This document shows positions 19,398 through 61,963 of a stretch of 64,000 bases of DNA, piece by piece. Numbering within the stretch: position 1 is the stretch's first letter; each line of letters begins with the position of its first letter. The notes below the pieces were generated by a model. It saw nothing but the letters and a program-made list of their open reading frames with translations. It was not told the origin of the DNA and made no database searches. The DNA comes from Moraxellaceae bacterium. Lineage in GTDB: Bacteria; Pseudomonadota; Gammaproteobacteria; Pseudomonadales; Moraxellaceae. The stretch spans positions 124,001 to 188,000 of the forward strand of contig JAQZBP010000005.1 in NCBI GenBank assembly GCA_029237815.1, in the 5' to 3' direction. The position numbers and the translations under genes were made by a program.

Positions 19398-19886
19398 TCA
19401 GTCCTTGAAGTTGTTGAACTGCAGCGGCACGCCGAACTTCTCCTCGCGCAGCAGGGCCATGACCTCCTGCAGGGTGTCGCGCTTCTTGTCGGTGACGCGC
19501 ACCTTGTCGCCCTGGATGGCGGCTTGGGCCTTGATACCCGCCTCCTTGATGGACTTGACGATCTTCTTGGCGATGTCGGATTCCAGGCCGTCCTTGAGCT
19601 TGATGACCTGGTGCATCTCCTTGCCCGAGGCTTCCATCTTCTGCGGGTCCATGCACTGCGGGTCGATCTTGCGCTTGATGAAGTGGTTTTCCAGCATGGC
19701 CAGCACCTGCTCGACCTGGAAATCGCTCTCGGCGGTGATCTTGATCAGCTTGTCCTTTTCCTTGAGATCGACCTCGACCTTGTGGCCGCGGAAGTCGAAG
19801 CGGGTGGCGATCTCCTTCACGGTGTTGGCGACCGCGTTGTTGACCTCGAAAAACTCCAGTTCGGAAACCACATCGAAAGACGGCAT
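19398..19886 (-). CDS. yajQ: YajQ family nucleotide-binding protein
   Basis: A 162-residue cytoplasmic protein of two RRM-like domains. Members bind nucleic acid or c-di-GMP, and the Xanthomonas homologue XC_3703 is a c-di-GMP effector. The start MPSFDVVSELEFFEVNNAVA, the NHFIKRKIDPQ segment and the end GVPLQFNNFKD are diagnostic. The ATG at 19886 has a GGAG ribosome site 8 bases upstream. A GTG nine bases further up has none. Whether this copy binds c-di-GMP cannot be read from sequence, but a GGDEF gene lies 1.7 kb away. Confidence 0.94.
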   Translation of the reverse strand: MPSFDVVSELEFFEVNNAVANTVKEIATRFDFRGHKVEVDLKEKDKLIKITAESDFQVEQVLAMLENHFIKRKIDPQCMDPQKMEASGKEMHQVIKLKDGLESDIAKKIVKSIKEAGIKAQAAIQGDKVRVTDKKRDTLQEVMALLREEKFGVPLQFNNFKD

Positions 19887-21445: not shown

Positions 21446-21624
21446 GGCGCTGTCCTCCTGACAAGACACCACAAGAATGCAACAGGTGTGCAGAGTTATT
21501 AAAGCACCATCAACGATGGACACCCGTCGGCGACAAACGGCCAGGGGTAAGCGGCCAACACATTCGTGACTTAGGCTGTCATCAGGACATGACGTTTCCA
21601 GCACCAGGAAACCGGGAGGACAGG

Positions 21625-22893
21625 ATGCTTGACCCGGATACAGACCAGTCGGCGCTGGCTGCCATCGCGGCGGAGGCCAGGAACGGCACCTGGCGGCTCG
21701 ACTTCGGGGGGCGCCTGGAAGCGGCGTACCTGGACGATCACCGTGCCCGTTCGGTGGCGTTCTTCCGCAACAGCTCGCTGTTCATTTTCCTGCTCTACCT
21801 GCTGCTGAGCTCGGGCATCTACATGCTGATGCCGGCCGAAGAGCTGGGCCGGTGGCTGGGGCTGTACGGCTGGGTGGGCGTGATCATTGCCACCGCCAGC
21901 CTGCTCACGCGCTTCCGCTATTTCGATCGCTGGTTCGAGCTTTATGTGGGGGCCGGGAGCTTCGCGGCCGTGGCGCTCTCGGTCGCCGTGACCGGTGTCG
22001 TGCTGAATCCCGTGGCGGGCCAGCTGACGCAGGTCGCGATCATGTACGCCATCGTGATCATTTATGGCGTGGTGGGACTGCGCTTCAAGCACTCGCTCTA
22101 CGCCGGCTGGGCCGGCGGCCTCGCCGGCACCGTGCTGGCCTGGGCCATGGATGGCGCCGTGAACTGGGAGCTGCTGCATCGCACCTTCACCGGCAGCAGC
22201 CTGCTTGGCATGTTCATCGCCTACTACGCCGAGCGCCGCGACCGCGAGCTCTTCCTGCAGGCGCACCTGCTGCGGGACGCCCAGGAGCGTACGGAGGAGT
22301 ATGCCTCACGCCTCGACAGGCTCTCGCGTCACGACGCCCTGACAGGCCTCGCCAACCGCCGCCATTTCGACGAGGAAGTGCAGCAGGAGTGGCGGCGCGC
22401 CACGCGCCAGCAGACCCCGCTGGCCATCCTCATGATCGATATCGACCACTTCAAGCACTACAACGACACGCTCGGGCACGTGAACGGCGACAACTGCCTG
22501 CGCAAGGTGGCCAGCATCATTGCCGCACACACGCGGCGCCCCGGCGAGCTGGCCGTGCGCTATGGCGGCGAGGAGTTCCTGCTCATGTTCCCGGATACCG
22601 GCCGCGAGGCCGCCTGCCTGCAGGCGGAGCGGCTGCTCGAGGCGCTGCACCTGGCGCGCCTGCCGCATGCCCCGGGCCTGGCGCGGGAACATGTGACAGT
22701 GAGCGTGGGGGTGGCGGCGGTGGTGCCCGGCACGACGATGCTGGCGCCGGGTGAACTGATCTGCGCCGCCGACGACGCGCTCTACGAGGCCAAGCATGCC
22801 GGCCGCGACACCTGGCGCTATGCCGCCGGCATCGACGAGCGACCGGGCGAGAACAGGCTGGCGCCGAGCCAGGACCTGCGCAACTCCGCCTGA
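21625..22893 (+). CDS. Membrane-anchored GGDEF diguanylate cyclase
   Basis: A 422-residue protein likely to make c-di-GMP from two GTP. The N-terminal half has about six membrane helices (for example SSLFIFLLYLLLSSGIYMLM and AAVALSVAVTGVVL), then a short coiled segment, then a GGDEF domain from about residue 232 (HDALTGLANRRHFDEE). The active site is RYGGEEF (GGEEF, residues 314-318), an active-type signature. The product-inhibition site RxxD reads RPGE, so feedback may be weak. The ATG at 21625 has a strong GGGAGGA ribosome site. The signal sensed by the membrane part is unknown. Confidence 0.92.
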   Translation: MLDPDTDQSALAAIAAEARNGTWRLDFGGRLEAAYLDDHRARSVAFFRNSSLFIFLLYLLLSSGIYMLMPAEELGRWLGLYGWVGVIIATASLLTRFRYFDRWFELYVGAGSFAAVALSVAVTGVVLNPVAGQLTQVAIMYAIVIIYGVVGLRFKHSLYAGWAGGLAGTVLAWAMDGAVNWELLHRTFTGSSLLGMFIAYYAERRDRELFLQAHLLRDAQERTEEYASRLDRLSRHDALTGLANRRHFDEEVQQEWRRATRQQTPLAILMIDIDHFKHYNDTLGHVNGDNCLRKVASIIAAHTRRPGELAVRYGGEEFLLMFPDTGREAACLQAERLLEALHLARLPHAPGLAREHVTVSVGVAAVVPGTTMLAPGELICAADDALYEAKHAGRDTWRYAAGIDERPGENRLAPSQDLRNSA

Positions 22894-23276
22894 CGTACCG
22901 CGGCGTGTGCCGGCGGGGTGTTGCACTGGCGGAGTGCGCTCTGCGCAATGCGCGCGCGTCGTAATAGCAGCGCACGTAAGCGAACTCCCGTTCGCCATGT
23001 GCGCCGCTTCCAGGAGTTCTCTTGCGAGAGTGCCGAATTTTCCTGCCGCGTCGCACGATCGTTGTAGACGCAACATTTCCTGTGCTCGTGGCTTCGTTGC
23101 ACTGTGCGTAAAAAGTCTGATTGTGGTCGCGCTTATGAAATCCACGGTTGCGACACGCATCGCGGATTTCTGAACCATACTGTCCCCGCTGCATTTGCGT
23201 GCAGTCCCGATGCCGCTGTGTAAGTCCCTTACCCGATGGCGCATGCCCGCGTCCCTTTCCCGACAGGAGTCAGGAA
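22894..23276. other. Intergenic region of about 380 bases with no gene recognised
   Basis: It lies between the GGDEF gene and the DUF4403 lipoprotein gene. No open frame here has a credible start and codon pattern, and I see no tRNA fold or strong terminator. The base composition is locally lower in GC around 23030-23170, as expected for a promoter region. Confidence 0.5.
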
Positions 23277-24827
23277 GTGGCAGTTTTCCGGCTTCCCGCT
23301 GCATTGAATCGCTTGCGCCCTTGCTGGCGCGCCACCCTGCTGTCCAGCCTCGTCCTCGGCCTTGCCGCCTGTGCCGTGGCCCCGCAGGCGCCGCCCAACA
23401 ATCCCGTTTCCGCGCCGCCGCTGCCGCTGGCGGCGTCGGTGATCAGCCTCCCCGTCAGCCTCGACCTCGGCCAGATGGGCGCGGGCCTGCTGAAACAGCT
23501 GCCCCGGCCGCTGCTGGCCTCGAGCCAGAACCGCACCTTGCCGGCACGCTTCAGCGCGATGCAGACCGCGCTCTCGATGGAGCCCGCCACCTGCAGCGTG
23601 ACCGCGCTCAACTGCGGCGGCACGCGCAACACCGTGCGCACGGTTTCGTCCGACTACGAGGCCCCGACGGAAGCCGTGGTGAGTCAGGAGATGACGGTGC
23701 GTGCGCTCGACATGAGCATGGCGGGCAGCCAGTTCGCCCTCACCGCGGAGGTGGAATTCAGCCTCGACACGCGCTTCCGCTCCGCCGCGACGCCGCTGGG
23801 CGTCGCAAGCTGCGGCAAGGAGGGCGCGCGACCACGCTTCGAAATGATGCTGACCGGCAATGTCGGCTGGGGCAGTGACGGCGAAATCCTGTTCTCGCCG
23901 CGGCCCTGGTATGTGCGCTGGCTGCAGCCCTGCAATATCACCGCTTACCCCGCCACTCTCGATAGCCTGCTCGACCTGCCGGGGCTGCGTGACCGCCTGC
24001 AGGATGCACTGGAGGCCTCGGTCTTCAGCCGGCTGCGCCAGGCCAGCCTGCGCGCGCACCTCGAGCGCGCCTGGATCGAGCTCAACACGCCGCGCGAGAT
24101 CCGACCCGGCGTCTGGCTGCTGATGCGGCCCGAGCGGGTCGACTTCGCCGGCCTGGAGGGAAAGGGACGCCAGGTCGGCACCGCCGTCCTGGTGCACGCC
24201 TGGCCAGAGCTGGTGAAAGGCGTGCGCCCCGACATGCCGGTGCCGCCCATGCCCCGGCCGGGAACAGGGGGGGGCGACGGTGACGGCCTGCACATCGCGA
24301 TGCGCGGCGACCTGACGTTGCGCGAGGCGGAGGCCAGCCTCGGCCGTCGCCTCGCGGGCAGCGTGCTGCGGGTGAATGGCGAGCCGGTGCAGGTGCGGTC
24401 GGTCCGCCTGTTCGGACACCGCGACAAGGCCGTGATCGCGCTGGCGACGAGCCAGCCCATGCTGGCCGAGATCTACCTGCTGGGCCGCCCTGTTTACGAT
24501 CTCGAGCGCAACGAAGTGCGTCTGCGTGACCTCGCCTTTTCGGAGCAAACGCAGGACTACCTGCGGCAGTCGGCGGACTGGTTGCTGGGCGGGGATTTCC
24601 TGGCGGCGGTGGAGGCGCGCGCGGCCTTTCCCTTCGATGCCACGCTGGCGGCGGCCCTGGGCGAATTGCACGACCTGCGCGTGGCGGCCGGCGACGACCT
24701 GACACTGAGGGGTGGCGTGCTGCGCATGCAGCCGCAGGCCCTCTACTTCACGAAGGACAGCCTGGTGGCGTATGTGCTGGTGGAAGGACGGATGGCACTG
24801 GAGTCGAGGCAGGCGATCGTCCCCTGA
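23277..24827 (+). CDS. DUF4403 family lipoprotein
   Basis: A 516-residue predicted lipoprotein. A GTG start at 23277 with AGGAG six bases upstream places a signal peptide with lipobox LAAC in front of the mature protein. An upstream in-frame ATG at 23148 would give a long non-signal N-terminus. The mature part matches the DUF4403 pattern: two similar halves with SVISLPVSLDLGQMG near the start, WYVRWLQPCNITAYP in the middle and a LVLVEG-like strand pattern at the end. The family resembles lipid-binding TULIP-type proteins, but no function is established. No linked operon partner is apparent. Confidence 0.75.
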   Translation: MAVFRLPAALNRLRPCWRATLLSSLVLGLAACAVAPQAPPNNPVSAPPLPLAASVISLPVSLDLGQMGAGLLKQLPRPLLASSQNRTLPARFSAMQTALSMEPATCSVTALNCGGTRNTVRTVSSDYEAPTEAVVSQEMTVRALDMSMAGSQFALTAEVEFSLDTRFRSAATPLGVASCGKEGARPRFEMMLTGNVGWGSDGEILFSPRPWYVRWLQPCNITAYPATLDSLLDLPGLRDRLQDALEASVFSRLRQASLRAHLERAWIELNTPREIRPGVWLLMRPERVDFAGLEGKGRQVGTAVLVHAWPELVKGVRPDMPVPPMPRPGTGGGDGDGLHIAMRGDLTLREAEASLGRRLAGSVLRVNGEPVQVRSVRLFGHRDKAVIALATSQPMLAEIYLLGRPVYDLERNEVRLRDLAFSEQTQDYLRQSADWLLGGDFLAAVEARAAFPFDATLAAALGELHDLRVAAGDDLTLRGGVLRMQPQALYFTKDSLVAYVLVEGRMALESRQAIVP

Positions 24828-27504: not shown

Positions 27505-28920
27505 TCAGGGCATGAGGCTCTGCAGCAGGCGGAAGTCGTCCATGGCCTCTGCCAACCGTGGCAGAACGGCCACGACGACACTGGCGCACAAGGCCGTCGT
27601 GAAGAGGGTGGCCAGTTCGCCGAGCGGCAGGGTCGGGGCAGGGCGCCGATACCACAGCCAGCGCAACCCGGCGAGGCAGGCCAGCCCCAGCACGGCGCCC
27701 GCGGCGACGTCGGATATCCAGTGCACGCCCAGGTAGGGGCGCGAGGCCACCGTGTACAGCATCAGGCTGAGCAGAAGCGGACGAGCCACGCCAAGCACGG
27801 GCGTATTGCCGTAGCGATCCAGCATCACCAGGCACAGGCCCCACACCACTACGGCGCTGAAGGCATGGCCGCTGGGGAAGGACCAGGAGCCCGGCGGCGT
27901 ACCCACCCATGCCGGGCGCGGCAAGGCAAATGCGTGCTTGAGCAGGTCGGGAAGGCCGAGGCAGACGGCAGCTGTGAGCAGTACCAGCATTACGGCGTCA
28001 TGCTGCCGGCGCAGCAGCAGCCAGCCGGTGGCGACCGTGCCGAACACCAGCAGTCCTGCGGTATCCCCCAGCAATGACAGCACCACGAACAGCCAGTCCA
28101 GGGTGTTCTGGCGCAGGCTGAAAAGCTGATAGGTGAGGGTCGCGTCGGCCTCTTTGAACCAGGGCAGGAGCGCGGCGATGAGCACAAAGCCTGTGAAGGA
28201 AAACAGCGCCAGGCGCAGGGCTGCGCGCTGGTCTTCCGGCTCGCCGCCGACGGAGAGGCAGCGGCCGGCATTGGGCAGTGGCCGGAAGGCGGCGCGGCGG
28301 TGGCGCCATTCCGCGAGCGCCGGCAGCAGCCAGGTCAGCACGGCGACGGCAATCAGGATGGCCGCCAGAAAAATCAGCTGGTCCCGGCCCGGCAGCCAGT
28401 CGTGGGCGGCCGCGGCGCCCAGGCTGTAGCCGGGAATCAGGTGGGTCGGCGCCCAGACCAGGGCGGACAGGAAGTTCATCCAGAGGAAGTACAGCGGCTT
28501 CATGCGGAAGATGCCGGCCGCCATCGGCACGAAGGCGCGCAGCGGGCCGATGAAGCGGCCGATGATGATGCTCTTGCCGCCGTGCCGCTCCACGAAGTCC
28601 TCGGAGCGCTGCAGCCACTTCGGGTAGTGGCTGAACGGCCAGACATGATGCACGCGATGCTTGAAACCCTTGCCGAGCGCATAGCTGATGCCATCGCCCA
28701 GCATGGCCCCGGCAATGCCGGCGAGGAACAGCGACAGCAGCGACACGTCGGCGTGCGCCGCGAGCACGCACAGCACGAACAGCAGTGGCACGGCCGGCAC
28801 GATCACGCCAACGACGGCCACGGCCTCGACGAGCGCGACCAGAAAAACCGCAAGCAGGATGGCGTCGGGGTGATGGATGAGCCAGCTGCGAAGCTCGAGG
28901 TACCAGGCCGCTAGATCCAT
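27505..28920 (-). CDS. DedA-PAP2 fusion membrane protein
   Basis: A 471-residue polytopic protein combining two families. Residues about 20-205 are a DedA / SNARE-associated (VTT) domain with GRFIGPLRAFVPMAAG and a GDGISYALGKGF segment. Residues about 235-440 are a PAP2 lipid phosphatase domain with KHAFALPRPAW, PSGHAFSA and SRPYLGVHWISDV, the three motifs of the catalytic site. DedA proteins are linked to undecaprenyl-phosphate and phospholipid flipping, and PAP2 enzymes dephosphorylate undecaprenyl-pyrophosphate. A combined dephosphorylate-and-flip role in carrier-lipid recycling is attractive but is inference. It follows lipA by 20 bases on the same strand. The ribosome site is weak. Confidence 0.88.
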   Translation of the reverse strand: MDLAAWYLELRSWLIHHPDAILLAVFLVALVEAVAVVGVIVPAVPLLFVLCVLAAHADVSLLSLFLAGIAGAMLGDGISYALGKGFKHRVHHVWPFSHYPKWLQRSEDFVERHGGKSIIIGRFIGPLRAFVPMAAGIFRMKPLYFLWMNFLSALVWAPTHLIPGYSLGAAAAHDWLPGRDQLIFLAAILIAVAVLTWLLPALAEWRHRRAAFRPLPNAGRCLSVGGEPEDQRAALRLALFSFTGFVLIAALLPWFKEADATLTYQLFSLRQNTLDWLFVVLSLLGDTAGLLVFGTVATGWLLLRRQHDAVMLVLLTAAVCLGLPDLLKHAFALPRPAWVGTPPGSWSFPSGHAFSAVVVWGLCLVMLDRYGNTPVLGVARPLLLSLMLYTVASRPYLGVHWISDVAAGAVLGLACLAGLRWLWYRRPAPTLPLGELATLFTTALCASVVVAVLPRLAEAMDDFRLLQSLMP

Positions 28921-28940
28921 GGATGAAATGCCCGGGCCGC

Positions 28941-29945
28941 TCAGGCCTGCGAGCTGCGCACGCGCGCAACATCGCCGACATCCACGCCGGCGAATTGCAG
29001 GTCCGCATGGTAGGAGGAGCGCACCATGGGACCGCTCCAGACGCTGCGGAAGCCGAGCTGGCGGCCGTAGGCGGCGTAGTCGGCAAACTCGCCCGGCGTC
29101 ACGAAGCGGTCCACGGGCGCATGGTTCTTCGACGGCTGCAGGTACTGGCCAATGGTGACGAGGTCCACGTCGTGGGCGCGCAGGTCGTCGAGCACGGCGA
29201 GCACTTCCTCCTTCGTCTCGCCGAGGCCGACCATGAGGCCGCACTTGGTGGTGATGTCGGGGCGCTCCTGTTTGAAGCGCTTCAGCAGCATGAGGGAGTG
29301 CGCGTAGTCGGAGCCCGGGCGAATGGCCTTGTAGAGACGGGGCACGGTTTCGATGTTGTGGTTGAACACGTCGGGCGGGCACTCGGTCATCAGGCGCAGG
29401 GCGATGTCCATGCGGCCGCGGAAGTCGGGCACCAGGATCTCGATCCGTGTCGCCGGGTTCAGTGCGCGGGTTTCGCGGACGCAGTCCACGAAGTGACCGG
29501 CGCCGCCATCCTTGAGGTCGTCGCGGTCGACCGAGGTCACCACCACGTATTTCAGCTTCAGGTTCTGCACGGTCTCGGCCAGGTGTCGCGGCTCTTCCGC
29601 ATCCAGCGCGTTGGGGCGGCCGTGGGCGACGTCGCAGAAGGGGCAGCGACGGGTGCAGATGTCGCCCATGATCATGAACGTCGCGGTGCCGCCGCCGAAG
29701 CATTCCGGCAGGTTGGGGCAGGCGGCTTCTTCGCAGACGGTGTGCAGTTTCTGGGCGCGCAGCAGGCCCTTGATGCGCTGGACCTCGCCGGGATTGGTCA
29801 CGCGCACGCGAATCCAGTCCGGCTTGCGCGGCAGTTCGGTGGTGGGAATCACCTTGACCGGAATGCGGGCCACCTTTTCCGCGCCACGCAGCTTCACTCC
29901 TTGTTCAACGCGGGCAGGGGGGGAGGATTCGGGAGGCTGGCTCAT
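28941..29945 (-). CDS. lipA: Lipoyl synthase LipA
   Basis: Radical-SAM enzyme that inserts two sulfur atoms into protein-bound octanoyl groups. It has 334 residues. The auxiliary cluster cysteines appear as [12 protein letters not shown], the radical-SAM cluster as CTRRCPFC, and the C-terminal serine motif as RSSYHA. It starts [16 protein letters not shown]. In many gammaproteobacteria lipA directly follows lipB. Here lipB is 5.4 kb away with sthA, ybaL, ltrA and a DUF2784 gene between. Confidence 0.97.
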
Positions 29946-57594: not shown

Positions 57595-58349
57595 TGGGGG
57601 TCTGCATCTCCGCGATAGATATGGTGTTGGTCAATATAGTCCCGCACTGCGGGGGCGAGCCAGCGGCTTGTGTCCTGGCCGGCCCGAACGGCCGCGCGTA
57701 TGTGCCGGCTGGCAATCTCGAACGGCGGGGTACCGGCCAGCAGGACGTGGCCGGCCGGCGTGCCGGAAAGGGCGGCCGGATCCCGGGTCAGGCGGGGTGA
57801 CAGCCAGGCGCGGAGCGTCAGCTCCGGTGCTGCGAGCGAGTGTCCGGCCGCTGCCTGAGGTTCGTCAGGCGTGCCCGGTGGAGAGGCATCGCCATCGGCA
57901 GGTGCCGGCAGGCCAAGGCTGTCCGCGGGCGCCAGCCCGGCGGGCCAGGCGCTGCCGGGCCGGCTGACCACCAGCAGGTGGGCGAAGTCCGTAAGCGACT
58001 GCCACTCCCTCCAGCGGGGCAGCTCGAGGCAGCTGTCCAGGCCCAGGATGAACACCAGCGGCTCTTCGGGGCCGAGGCTGGCGCGCATCTGGTGCAGGGT
58101 GTCGATGGTGTAGGAGGGCGGCGGCCGGTCCAGCTCGGAGCGGTCGAGGACCAGGCCGGGGTGGCCGGCCAGGGCGCGCTCCAGCATGGCGACCCGGTGC
58201 ACGTCGGCCGTCACGCTGTCCTTCAGCGGGGAACGCGCGGCCGGGAGGAAGCGGATCTCGCGGAAGCCGAAGCGCGCCCGCAACTCCTCCGCCGTGGCCA
58301 CGTGGCCCAGGTGCACCGGATCGAAGGAGCCGCCGAACAGCCCTATCAC
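57591..58349 (-). CDS. nadD: Nicotinate-mononucleotide adenylyltransferase NadD
   Basis: Adenylates nicotinate mononucleotide in NAD synthesis. The nucleotide-binding [14 protein letters not shown] starts at residue 3, PPSYTIDTL is central and [14 protein letters not shown] holds the second ATP motif. The GTG at 58349 was chosen because it overlaps the proA stop as GTGA and starts [10 protein letters not shown]. The protein has 252 residues, longer than the usual 210-220, because of a Pro/Ala/Asp-rich insert at residues about 134-175 between the core strands. The insert is in frame and probably a surface loop. Confidence 0.94.
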
Positions 58350-59614
58350 TGGCGGATATGCCCGTCGCCCAGCACCACCCACTTTTGCGAGGTCAGGCCT
58401 TCCAGTCCGACCGGGCCGCGTGCGTGGATCTTGTTGGTGGAGATGCCGATCTCGGCGCCCAGGCCGTACTCGAAGCCGTCCGCGAAGCGGGTGGAGGCGT
58501 TGACCATGACTGAGCTGGAATCGACCTCGTTAAGGAAGCGGCGGGCCTTGGTGACGCTTTCGGTGATGATGGAGTCGGTGTGATGCGAGCCGTAGCGGTT
58601 GATGTGGGCGATGGCCTCGTCCAGGCCGTCCACGACCTTGATGGCCAGCACCGGCGCCAGGTATTCCTCGGACCAGTCGGCCTCGGTGGCGGCCACGGCA
58701 TCGGGCACGAAGGCAAGGGTGCGCGCGCAGGCGCGCAGCTCGACGCCCTTCTCGCGGTAGAGCGGCACCAGCGCCTGGAGCGCGGCCTCGGCCATGGGCG
58801 CGTCCAGCAGCAGCGACTCCATGGCGTTGCAGACGCCGTAGCGGTGGGTCTTGGCGTTGAGGGCGATGGGCACGGCCTTGGCCAAGTCGGCTTCGCGCTC
58901 GATGAAGACGTGGCAGTTGCCGTCCAGGTGGTAGATCACGGGCACGCGCGCCTCGGTGCTGATGCGCTCGATCAGGCCCTTGCCGCCGCGGGGCACGATG
59001 ACGTCCACGAAGTCGGGCATGGTGATGAGTGCCGAGACCGCGGCGCGGTCGGTGGTTTCCACCACCTGCACCGCCTCGCGCGGCATGCCGGCGCTGGCCA
59101 GGCCGTCCTGGATGCAGGCGGCAATGGCGCGGTTGGAGTGGATGGCCTCGGAGCCGCCGCGCAGGATGGTGGCGTTGCCGGACTTCAGGCAGAGCGCGGC
59201 CGCTTCCAGCGTCACGTTGGGGCGGGACTCGTAGATGATGCCGATGACGCCCAGGGGCACGCGCATCTTGCCGACCTGGATGCCGCTGGGGCGATAGACC
59301 AGGTCGGTGATGGCGCCCACGGGGTCGGCCAGGTCCATGACCTGGCGCAGGCCTTCCAGCATGCCGGCGAAGGTCTTCTCGCCGATGGTCAGGCGGTCCA
59401 GCATGGCGGCGTCGAGGCCGTTGGCGCGGCCGGCGTCCACATCCCTGGCGTTGGCGGCCAGTACCGCCGGCTTCGCGGCCACGAGCGCGTCATGGATGGC
59501 GGCCAGTGCTCCATTCTTCTCGCGGGTGGTGGCGCGGGCAGTGGTGCGCGAGGCCGCGCGGGCGGCGCGACCCAGGGTCTGCATGTAGGTGGAGACGTCA
59601 AGCGGGCTGTTCAC
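58346..59614 (-). CDS. proA: Gamma-glutamyl phosphate reductase ProA
   Basis: Reduces gamma-glutamyl phosphate to glutamate semialdehyde in proline synthesis with NADPH. The GTG start at 59614 with a GAGG ribosome site gives 422 residues, close to the family length. The [12 protein letters not shown] segment, the catalytic cysteine in [13 protein letters not shown] and the C-terminal [19 protein letters not shown] are intact. It is the first gene of proA-nadD-rsfS-rlmH, the Pseudomonas order. Confidence 0.96.
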
Positions 59615-59903: not shown

Positions 59904-61208
59904 ATGGCCGTAGCGTACGAGCAGTACAACCGCTCCTCCCTCAAGCAGTCGCCCAGGCAGGACTTCATCGGCAAATGGCGGGTTGATTACCTCGCCTTCA
60001 GCCAGCCCCAGAATGTCCACAAGACGCCGCTCCTCGTGCTGGGCGGTGCCTTCCAGAACTTCAATTCCTACAAGTACTGCGTCGAGCAGATCCTGAACGA
60101 GGTGCCCGTCATCCTCGTGGACCTGCCCTCGCTCGGCAACAATGACCAGCTCGCGCCCGAACTCGGCATGGAAGACCTGGCGGACCTGCTCTTCCAGTGG
60201 ACGCAGCATGCCGGCCTCGCCAAGGTGTCCCTGATGGGGCTGTCGCTGGGTTCCGTGGTCGCCTCCACCTATGCCTACAAACGCCCCGAGGTGACCGACA
60301 AGCTCATCGTCACCGGCATCGTGGTGCGCCCGCGCAAGTCCTGGCGCATGCTGCTGGAAGAGTCGGTCAAGGTGCTGGACGAGAAGCGCCTGGATGAATT
60401 CGGCCAGGCCGTGGTGCTCTATCTCGTGAACCACGCGCGCCTCAAGGAAACCGAGATCACCGACATCACGCGCAAGCTCTTCCACCGCCAGATGCGCGGT
60501 TTCCACGAGAACGAGCAGCAGCGCTACCGCATCAATGCCAGGCGCCTGCTCGAGGTGGAGTCCATCCTCGGCTATCCCACCTGCGACACGCTGGTGGCGA
60601 CCGGTGAGTACGACAGCTTCACGCTGCCCTATGAAAACGCCCTCTTCGCGGCCCGCTGCCCCAATGCGACCTTTGCCCTCATCAAGGGAGCCGACCACGT
60701 GGCGCAGCTGGAAAAGCGCGACGAGTCCGTCGCCATGTTCTCGGCCTTCCTGCGCGGCGACGACCTGCGCACGCTGCCGGGCATCGACGTGCTGACCCGC
60801 CACCAGTGCGAGGCCCTGGAGCGGCGCGGCGAACCACGCTTCGTGCCGGTCAATCCGCATGCCCGGGTGATCAGCTTCTCCCAGCTCGATGGCTCGCTCT
60901 CCATCGACATGAAGGTGCGCATCCGCGACATGAACTTCTTCGGCTGCGTGCTGGATTTCGACTACACCGACTCGCCACTCGAGAAGCATGCCCGCGACCT
61001 CGTGCTGTGCCCGGAAGGCACGGCGCTGCGCATCGAGATGCTGGTGTTCGAGCAGGACGGCAAGCACATGCGCTGCCTGTTCAAGCACGGCAGCTTCGAT
61101 GTGGCCGAGGAGCTCAAGGCGCTGCTCGACGACGAGCGTTTTTTCCGCCGCCCCGCTGAACAGGAAGTGGCTGGCGGGCAGCAGAAGGTCAGGACGATCT
61201 ACAGCTGA
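59904..61208 (+). CDS. RhlA-like alpha/beta hydrolase fused to a PilZ-like domain
   Basis: A 434-residue protein. Residues 40-285 are an alpha/beta hydrolase whose order of motifs resembles RhlA, the acyltransferase that makes rhamnolipid precursor. [15 protein letters not shown] comes first, then [12 protein letters not shown], the nucleophile S114 in MGLSLGS, D237 in ATGEYDSFT and H265 in GADHVAQLE. Residues 300-410 look like a PilZ domain, with RxxxR (R308-R312) followed by DMNFFG (residues 342-347) in place of DxSxxG. PilZ domains bind c-di-GMP, so the enzyme may be switched by it. The changed Ser may weaken binding. The substrate is unknown. A 289-base gap precedes it and a terminator follows. 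Confidence 0.72.
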
Positions 61209-61232
61209 CGACCCGATCTCTCAGGCAGGACG

Positions 61233-61253
61233 GCCCGCGCAAGCGGGCTTTTC
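61233..61253 (+). terminator. Intrinsic terminator after the hydrolase-PilZ gene
   Basis: GCCCGC and GCGGGC arms with a 4-base loop, then TTTT and a second T-run. Confidence 0.85.
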
Positions 61254-61324
61254 TGCTTTTGTGACCCGGATTTTGCCTGTCGGCGTGTGCGTCGCTTATG
61301 CTCCGCACACACGGAGGTCCACCC

Positions 61325-61963
61325 ATGAAGTCCATCCCCATCGCCACCTACTCCCCAGACACGCTCGAGAACCTGCTGTCCGGCATCCCCTTCTGGAAGG
61401 ACATGATCTTCAACGATCCGGACCAGATGGACGTCCTGAAGCGCCATTCCAGCATCTACGAGCCGGCCGCCGGCGAGGTGGTGATCGAGAAGGGCGCGAC
61501 CGACAAGATCTTCTACTTCCTGCTCTCCGGGCAGCTCGTCGTCTACCCGGACGGCAAGAAGTCGCGCAAGGCGGTCAACTACCTGACCCCCGGTCAGGCC
61601 CTCGGCGTCCTGGCCCTGCTCTGCAATTCGCCCCGAACGGCGACGCTGGTGGCCGACCCCAAGTCCGGCCGCGTCCAGATGATCGGCACGGACTTCGCGC
61701 CCTTTGGGGAGCTTGCCGATTTCAGCAAGATCCACCTGGGCACCAAGCTCGCGCTCTGGCGCATGGTTACCCACAACACCCGCTGGAAGCTCAACGTCTA
61801 CCGCATGCAGACGCCTGACCATCCGCTGTCGCTGGCGCTGGCCAAGGTGGAGTCCTTCAGTGGCGAGAAAGGCACGGTGGAGGAACTGCAGAGCCTGGAT
61901 CGCCAGGTGCGCGCGCTCACCGAGCTCATGTCGAAATGGAACGAGGTGCTGACCAGCAGCTAG
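61325..61963 (+). CDS. Cyclic-nucleotide-binding-fold protein without DNA-binding domain
   Basis: A 212-residue soluble protein. Residues 25-125 are a cNMP-binding beta barrel (EPAAGEVVIEKGATDKIFYF, then LLSGQLVVYPDG). The phosphate-binding cassette reads ALGVLALLCNSPRTATLVA. The Arg is kept, but the glutamate that normally contacts the ribose is replaced by Val, so cAMP binding is doubtful. The C-terminal 70 residues are helical and end in a likely coiled coil (LQSLDRQVRALTELMSKWNEV). There is no helix-turn-helix, so it is not a CRP-type regulator. GGAGG lies eight bases before the ATG. Its end overlaps the convergent AraC gene by 4 bases. Confidence 0.78.
   Translation: MKSIPIATYSPDTLENLLSGIPFWKDMIFNDPDQMDVLKRHSSIYEPAAGEVVIEKGATDKIFYFLLSGQLVVYPDGKKSRKAVNYLTPGQALGVLALLCNSPRTATLVADPKSGRVQMIGTDFAPFGELADFSKIHLGTKLALWRMVTHNTRWKLNVYRMQTPDHPLSLALAKVESFSGEKGTVEELQSLDRQVRALTELMSKWNEVLTSS

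Follow-up and report, generated by a model that had tools for sequence, protein, structure and literature searches.

The question that this locus raises is whether a single polypeptide joins an enzyme of acyl chemistry to a domain through which c-di-GMP could switch it. A single ATG-started open reading frame on the plus strand (59904-61208 of the window, the 64,000-nucleotide stretch of Moraxellaceae DNA that was analyzed) translates into 434 amino acids, and the frame is taken as a whole gene encoding an α/β-hydrolase-PilZ fusion because the best 80 database loci (L002-L081) carry full-length orthologs of like length. The hydrolase domain occupies residues 1-289 (59904-60770), as judged from Pfam and from matches of its AlphaFold model, and the PilZ domain, a predicted barrel with a C-terminal helix, occupies residues 291-415 (60774-61148). 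A candidate intrinsic terminator starts 24 bases past the stop codon (61232-61249, plus strand), where a hairpin with a 7-pair stem and a T-rich tail matches the consensus. Genome-wide, no second close copy of the gene was found in the 12 contigs (3.12 Mb). The sequence-only reading of a hydrolase half followed by a PilZ-like domain is confirmed by the frame, the alignment and the predicted fold, and the fusion itself, its intact catalytic triad, the predicted PilZ fold and the conserved c-di-GMP motif form the established part of what follows.

The N-terminal half matches Pfam Abhydrolase_1 over the cut-off (E 4.1e-11), and it has both the fold and the nucleophile-acid-histidine triad that mark the α/β-hydrolase superfamily. 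The triad, S114 (60243-60245), D237 (60612-60614) and H265 (60696-60698), had been proposed as complete, and each residue is invariant in 39 of the 39 homologs of the full alignment (A2, 25-92% identity). Each also pairs residue for residue with its counterpart in RhlA (S102, D223 and H251; the reference letters used are identical to PDB 8ik2 across 295 residues).

An earlier suggestion that the hydrolase half resembles RhlA holds beyond the order of motifs, though it does not extend to the protein being RhlA. Alignment of RhlA with the fusion family by hhalign spans 244 columns with a probability of 96.6% and an E of 5e-10 at about 18% identity, and two trees group the hydrolase half with RhlA/PhaG (FastTree support 0.93; UFBoot 100). 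Besides proteins of RhlA/PhaG type the trees took in 29 generic hydrolases, drawn from three genomes, and a wider sample could alter the grouping. Several residues common to the fusion and RhlA are rare in the generic set: P75 is found in 23% of it, S55 and E204 in 17% each, T240 in 13% and F257 in 7%. On the other side, structural comparison of the AlphaFold model with solved structures gives hydrolases Z-scores of 24-28, among which RhlA (8ik2, Z 25.1 across 260 residues) does not stand out from many unrelated hydrolases, the fold being generic. In a profile search of the PDB the carboxylesterases 4uhc/4uhh and MGS-M2 are best and esterases score above RhlA, and in NCBIfam PcaD-type enol-lactonases rank first, far below the cut-off. 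Neither orthology nor high similarity to RhlA was found, as identity is about 18% and the best match of RhlA in the source genome is a different gene, the fusion coming fifth with E 0.055. Going by these sequence comparisons, the hydrolase half is not an ortholog of RhlA, and "RhlA-branch" is a fair label where "RhlA" is not. Since the fusion and RhlA/PhaG-family proteins occur together in some genomes (G122, G170, G191 and G231), it is no simple replacement for them.

For the C-terminal half the predicted structure is more telling than the databases. Pfam PF07238 has no match over its cut-off in the C-terminal half of the source protein, also when that half is scanned alone, and NCBIfam gives nothing for it. 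With the domain scanned alone Pfam recognizes PilZ in two of 39 homologs (best E 9e-5); it misses the PilZ half in nearly all of the fusion members scanned. When the C-terminal alignment is used as a profile against the PDB, PilZ proteins of MrkH/YcgR type come first, at an E of only 0.39, which is suggestive and not proof. A separate AF2 model of residues 291-434 (m0a48ff36341e; pLDDT 77, with the low values mostly near the termini) has the six-stranded β-barrel and C-terminal helix of a PilZ domain. Compared with solved structures by VIA-align, it returns PilZ or PilZ-bearing proteins in all of the top 33 rows, with Z from 12.7 to 6.9, among them BcsA, CeSA, MapZ, YcgR, MrkH, PP4397, Alg44 and VCA0042, and unrelated barrels start at Z 6.8; the barrel that structure prediction had been expected to show is thus the one found. 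The missing Pfam match is a matter of detection threshold, not a biological feature, so the half is assigned by fold and motif, and on the predicted structure its identification as a PilZ domain too divergent for Pfam to recognize is sound. Psb28, to which five homologs have matches, was considered as an identity and dropped, as no Psb28 entry stands among the structure-comparison rows. The full-length model, built from 35 homologs, has a pLDDT of 85.3 and a pTM of 0.85, values which suggest that the two halves pack together in a defined way.

The motifs that mark c-di-GMP binding in PilZ domains are where conservation in this half is concentrated. Only four of 131 profile positions, G293, R308, R312 and G347, are invariant among the 39 homologs, and three of the four are among the five positions of the PilZ c-di-GMP motif, for which a simple draw gives a chance of about 1e-4, a rough figure given that Arg and Gly are often conserved anyway. 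In the RRxxxR motif (R307-R312, 60822-60839) the R308 and R312 that define RxxxR are present in 39 of 39, and R307 is Arg in 30 and Lys, Gln or His in nine, often Gln in family f38. The sequence-only reading had staked the domain on conservation of R308 and R312 among homologs, and they are unchanged even where, like G347, they sit in a PilZ domain only 21-25% identical in the remainder. The second motif, D342-M-N344-F-F-G347 in the source protein (60927-60944), had been described as a DxNxxG variant and stands as such: Asp or Asn occupies 342 in 36 of 39, Gly occupies 347 in all, and position 344, which has Asn, Ser or Thr in 35, is Asn in 25 (the source protein and 24 others), Ser in seven, Thr in three and Gly in four. 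The textbook serine is present in some close relatives (DMSFFG in L005, DISFFG in L009), and because of these sister sequences DxNxxG can be seen as the same motif as (D/N)xSxxG, of which it is, as far as the alignment goes, the usual form in the fusion family. Pseudomonas-type homologs are different. L101, L104 and L105 (ELGYFG, ALGFFG and ELGFFG) have lost the D/N, with Glu, Ala and Glu in its place, and have Gly at 344, yet they retain RxxxR. Because of these three, c-di-GMP control cannot be universal in the family; ligand control may have been lost in that lineage, and L101, L104 and L105 may then offer a natural test pair.

The surroundings of the gene are conserved in part. proA (58346-59584, minus strand) lies divergent to and adjoins the fusion gene in 84 of the 88 loci compared, and is taken as context rather than mechanism. 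On the other side 80 of the 88, one Pseudomonas-type locus included, have a convergent gene for an LCM-family methyltransferase (PF04072); in the source genome it is just past the window edge, roughly 3 kb downstream from the fusion gene (contig 188208-189071, equivalent to 64208-65071 in window numbering, minus strand). A second LCM-family copy is present on contig C10 (114854-115699). Among the genomes sampled across the order, the methyltransferase is present in 23 of the 29 with a strong fusion match and in 22 of the 264 others (Fisher p ~1e-16, which is descriptive, since it ignores relatedness), and in family f38 both genes are present but apart. The neighbors are proA-nadD-rsfS, a cNMP-binding protein, an AraC-type regulator and the methyltransferase, and no surfactant, PHA or glycosyltransferase gene was found beside the fusion. 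The cyclic-nucleotide-binding protein (PF00027 by Pfam, 61298-61963, plus strand, 221 amino acids, with no DNA-binding domain reported) was considered as a functional partner and set aside, as only the closest relatives (L002, L003 and L007) have its gene near the fusion.

A strong match to the fusion is present in 29 of 293 genomes sampled across Pseudomonadales, most of the 29 having full-length orthologs. Among named records a Moraxellaceae MAG (L002) comes closest, at 92% identity, and orthologs occur across Acinetobacter, species of the calcoaceticus-baumannii complex among them. The fusion was not seen in about 360 gammaproteobacterial genomes outside Pseudomonadales, and with the domain profile the 369 genomes of the class sample yielded no match beyond the order other than two short ORFs that stand alone and carry PilZ motifs. 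The fusion is vertically inherited within Pseudomonadales, next to proA and, in most lineages, to an LCM-type methyltransferase gene. One record titled as a Pedobacter sp. MAG (L004, JAVHYE010000008.1) has an 84%-identical copy with the LCM methyltransferase alongside, and is probably mis-named or mis-binned.

The genes for a diguanylate cyclase, YajQ and pilus parts that had been pointed to elsewhere in the window are all real, a GGDEF protein at 21589-22893, YajQ/DUF520 at 19404-19883 (minus strand) and a PilQ-type secretin at 10-1707, but they are tens of kilobases away and have no specific link to the fusion. The idea that the nearby cyclase feeds it was dropped, since the window's one is about 37 kb away and there are 35 GGDEF domains genome-wide. 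Because the source genome (3.1 Mb) encodes those 35 GGDEF domains and, above the cut-off, six further PilZ proteins, c-di-GMP is very likely present in the organism; such numbers amount to a dense c-di-GMP network. Shortly downstream of the GGDEF gene is a 559-amino-acid frame for a DUF4403 protein (23148-24827, plus strand), and a 732-amino-acid protein at 27505-29703 (minus strand) combines VTT (DedA-like) and PAP2 phosphatase domains, a fusion of membrane-lipid type.

The interpretation that we favor, and hold to be slightly more probable than otherwise, is of a catalytically complete hydrolase of the RhlA/PhaG branch, the activity of which follows c-di-GMP via the PilZ domain, with an acyl (thio)ester as substrate and either hydrolysis or transfer as outcome. 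By analogy with other PilZ proteins, the RRxxxR loop and the (D/N)x(N/S)xxG turn would clamp c-di-GMP. The RRxxxR loop is placed directly after the interdomain linker with its invariant G293, and because of this placement binding could re-seat the PilZ domain on the hydrolase, alter access to the active site and so make activity follow c-di-GMP. Switching of this kind is a plausible and good hypothesis. The choice of an acyl (thio)ester as substrate is held with less confidence, as is its possible identity, shared with RhlA and PhaG, as a 3-hydroxyacyl-ACP or -CoA, and so is a part for the LCM-type methyltransferase, which may modify what the enzyme makes or belong to its pathway; lipid or surfactant output would be conjecture. 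Against regulation of the enzyme is the Asn at 344 that replaces the textbook Ser in 25 of 39.

In a different explanation, the PilZ domain has become a fixed part, for structure or protein docking, that has ceased to bind c-di-GMP, and the enzyme works constitutively as a housekeeping esterase. PilZ proteins that do not bind the nucleotide are known, as in the PilZ proteins of type IV pili, and the loss of the D/N and S/N positions in Pseudomonas-type homologs, with the frequent Gln for R307 in f38, fits such a fate. One would not expect a domain retained for its fold alone to spare ligand residues above all others, however, and with R308, R312 and G347 invariant at 21-25% domain identity we consider the explanation rather unlikely.

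The two other alternatives accept regulation by c-di-GMP and concern what is regulated. The hydrolase could act on something other than a fatty acyl thioester, such as a simple ester, a lactone or a cell-envelope ester, its likeness to RhlA reflecting shared superfamily ancestry only, and the carboxylesterases and MGS-M2 at the top of the PDB profile matches, the enol-lactonases that lead in NCBIfam, if far below cut-off, and the generic fold all agree with this; the trees do not, as they put the hydrolase half with RhlA/PhaG and not with the sampled generic hydrolases, and we regard the idea as quite possible while leaning away from it. At the opposite extreme the protein would be a true HAA synthase with RhlA function under c-di-GMP control, making a surfactant lipid. 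The residue-for-residue match of the triad and the precedent of PilZ-fused biosurfactant synthases (PMC4897644) speak for it, but with about 18% identity to RhlA, coexistence with RhlA/PhaG-family proteins in the four genomes named above and the absence of a glycosyltransferase gene nearby it is improbable. The acyl (thio)ester enzyme switched by c-di-GMP remains our preferred reading. Its widest form, an unrecognized class of c-di-GMP effector in Moraxellaceae and other Pseudomonadales in which a single-chain acyl hydrolase/transferase of the RhlA/PhaG branch is gated directly by c-di-GMP and, with the neighboring LCM methyltransferase, alters lipids or surface-active metabolites as cells settle, is put forward tentatively, and we think it doubtful as a whole.

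A literature search found no report of an α/β-hydrolase fused to PilZ. Few enzymes are known in which an attached PilZ domain acts directly as the switch, the named cases being cellulose and alginate synthesis (PMC4897644), and the fusion provides a two-domain target for testing direct c-di-GMP control of lipid chemistry. In Acinetobacter baumannii a 2026 study counts only two known c-di-GMP effectors, the PilZ protein A1S_2421 and EF-P, and describes the effectors there as largely unknown, with others still to be discovered (PMC13243610). The fusion is easily missed in lists of effectors because Pfam overlooks its PilZ half in almost every member scanned, and A1S_2421 could itself be a fusion ortholog.

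Comparison with known systems places the fusion between several of them. The Pseudomonas "probable hydrolase" beside proA, which we take to be PA4008 in PAO1, is an ortholog with 35-39% identity that likewise adjoins proA and an LCM methyltransferase, and differs in its degenerate second PilZ motif; no biological paper naming PA4008 in the main text was found. RhlA (3-(3-hydroxyalkanoyloxy)alkanoate synthase of Pseudomonas aeruginosa, PDB 8ik2) and the PhaG branch have in common with the fusion the order of the triad and, in core and cap, P75, S55, E204, L216, T240 and F257, while the fusion adds a PilZ domain to what is about 18% identical to RhlA and has another gene neighborhood. YcgR, MrkH, MapZ, Alg44 and BcsA share the PilZ barrel (VIA-align Z ~9-13), RxxxR and motifs of (D/N)xSxxG type, but their partner domains are not hydrolases, and the PilZ domain of the fusion is too divergent for Pfam. 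As a precedent the Nas-PilZ biosurfactant synthases come nearest: Nas343 and Nas354 make N-acyltyrosine biosurfactants, with regulation by c-di-GMP proposed only, and like the fusion they are single polypeptides in which a C-terminal PilZ domain follows a lipid-making enzyme, the enzyme half there being an N-acyl amino acid synthase of FeeM type and not an α/β-hydrolase (Thies et al. 2016, PMC4897644).
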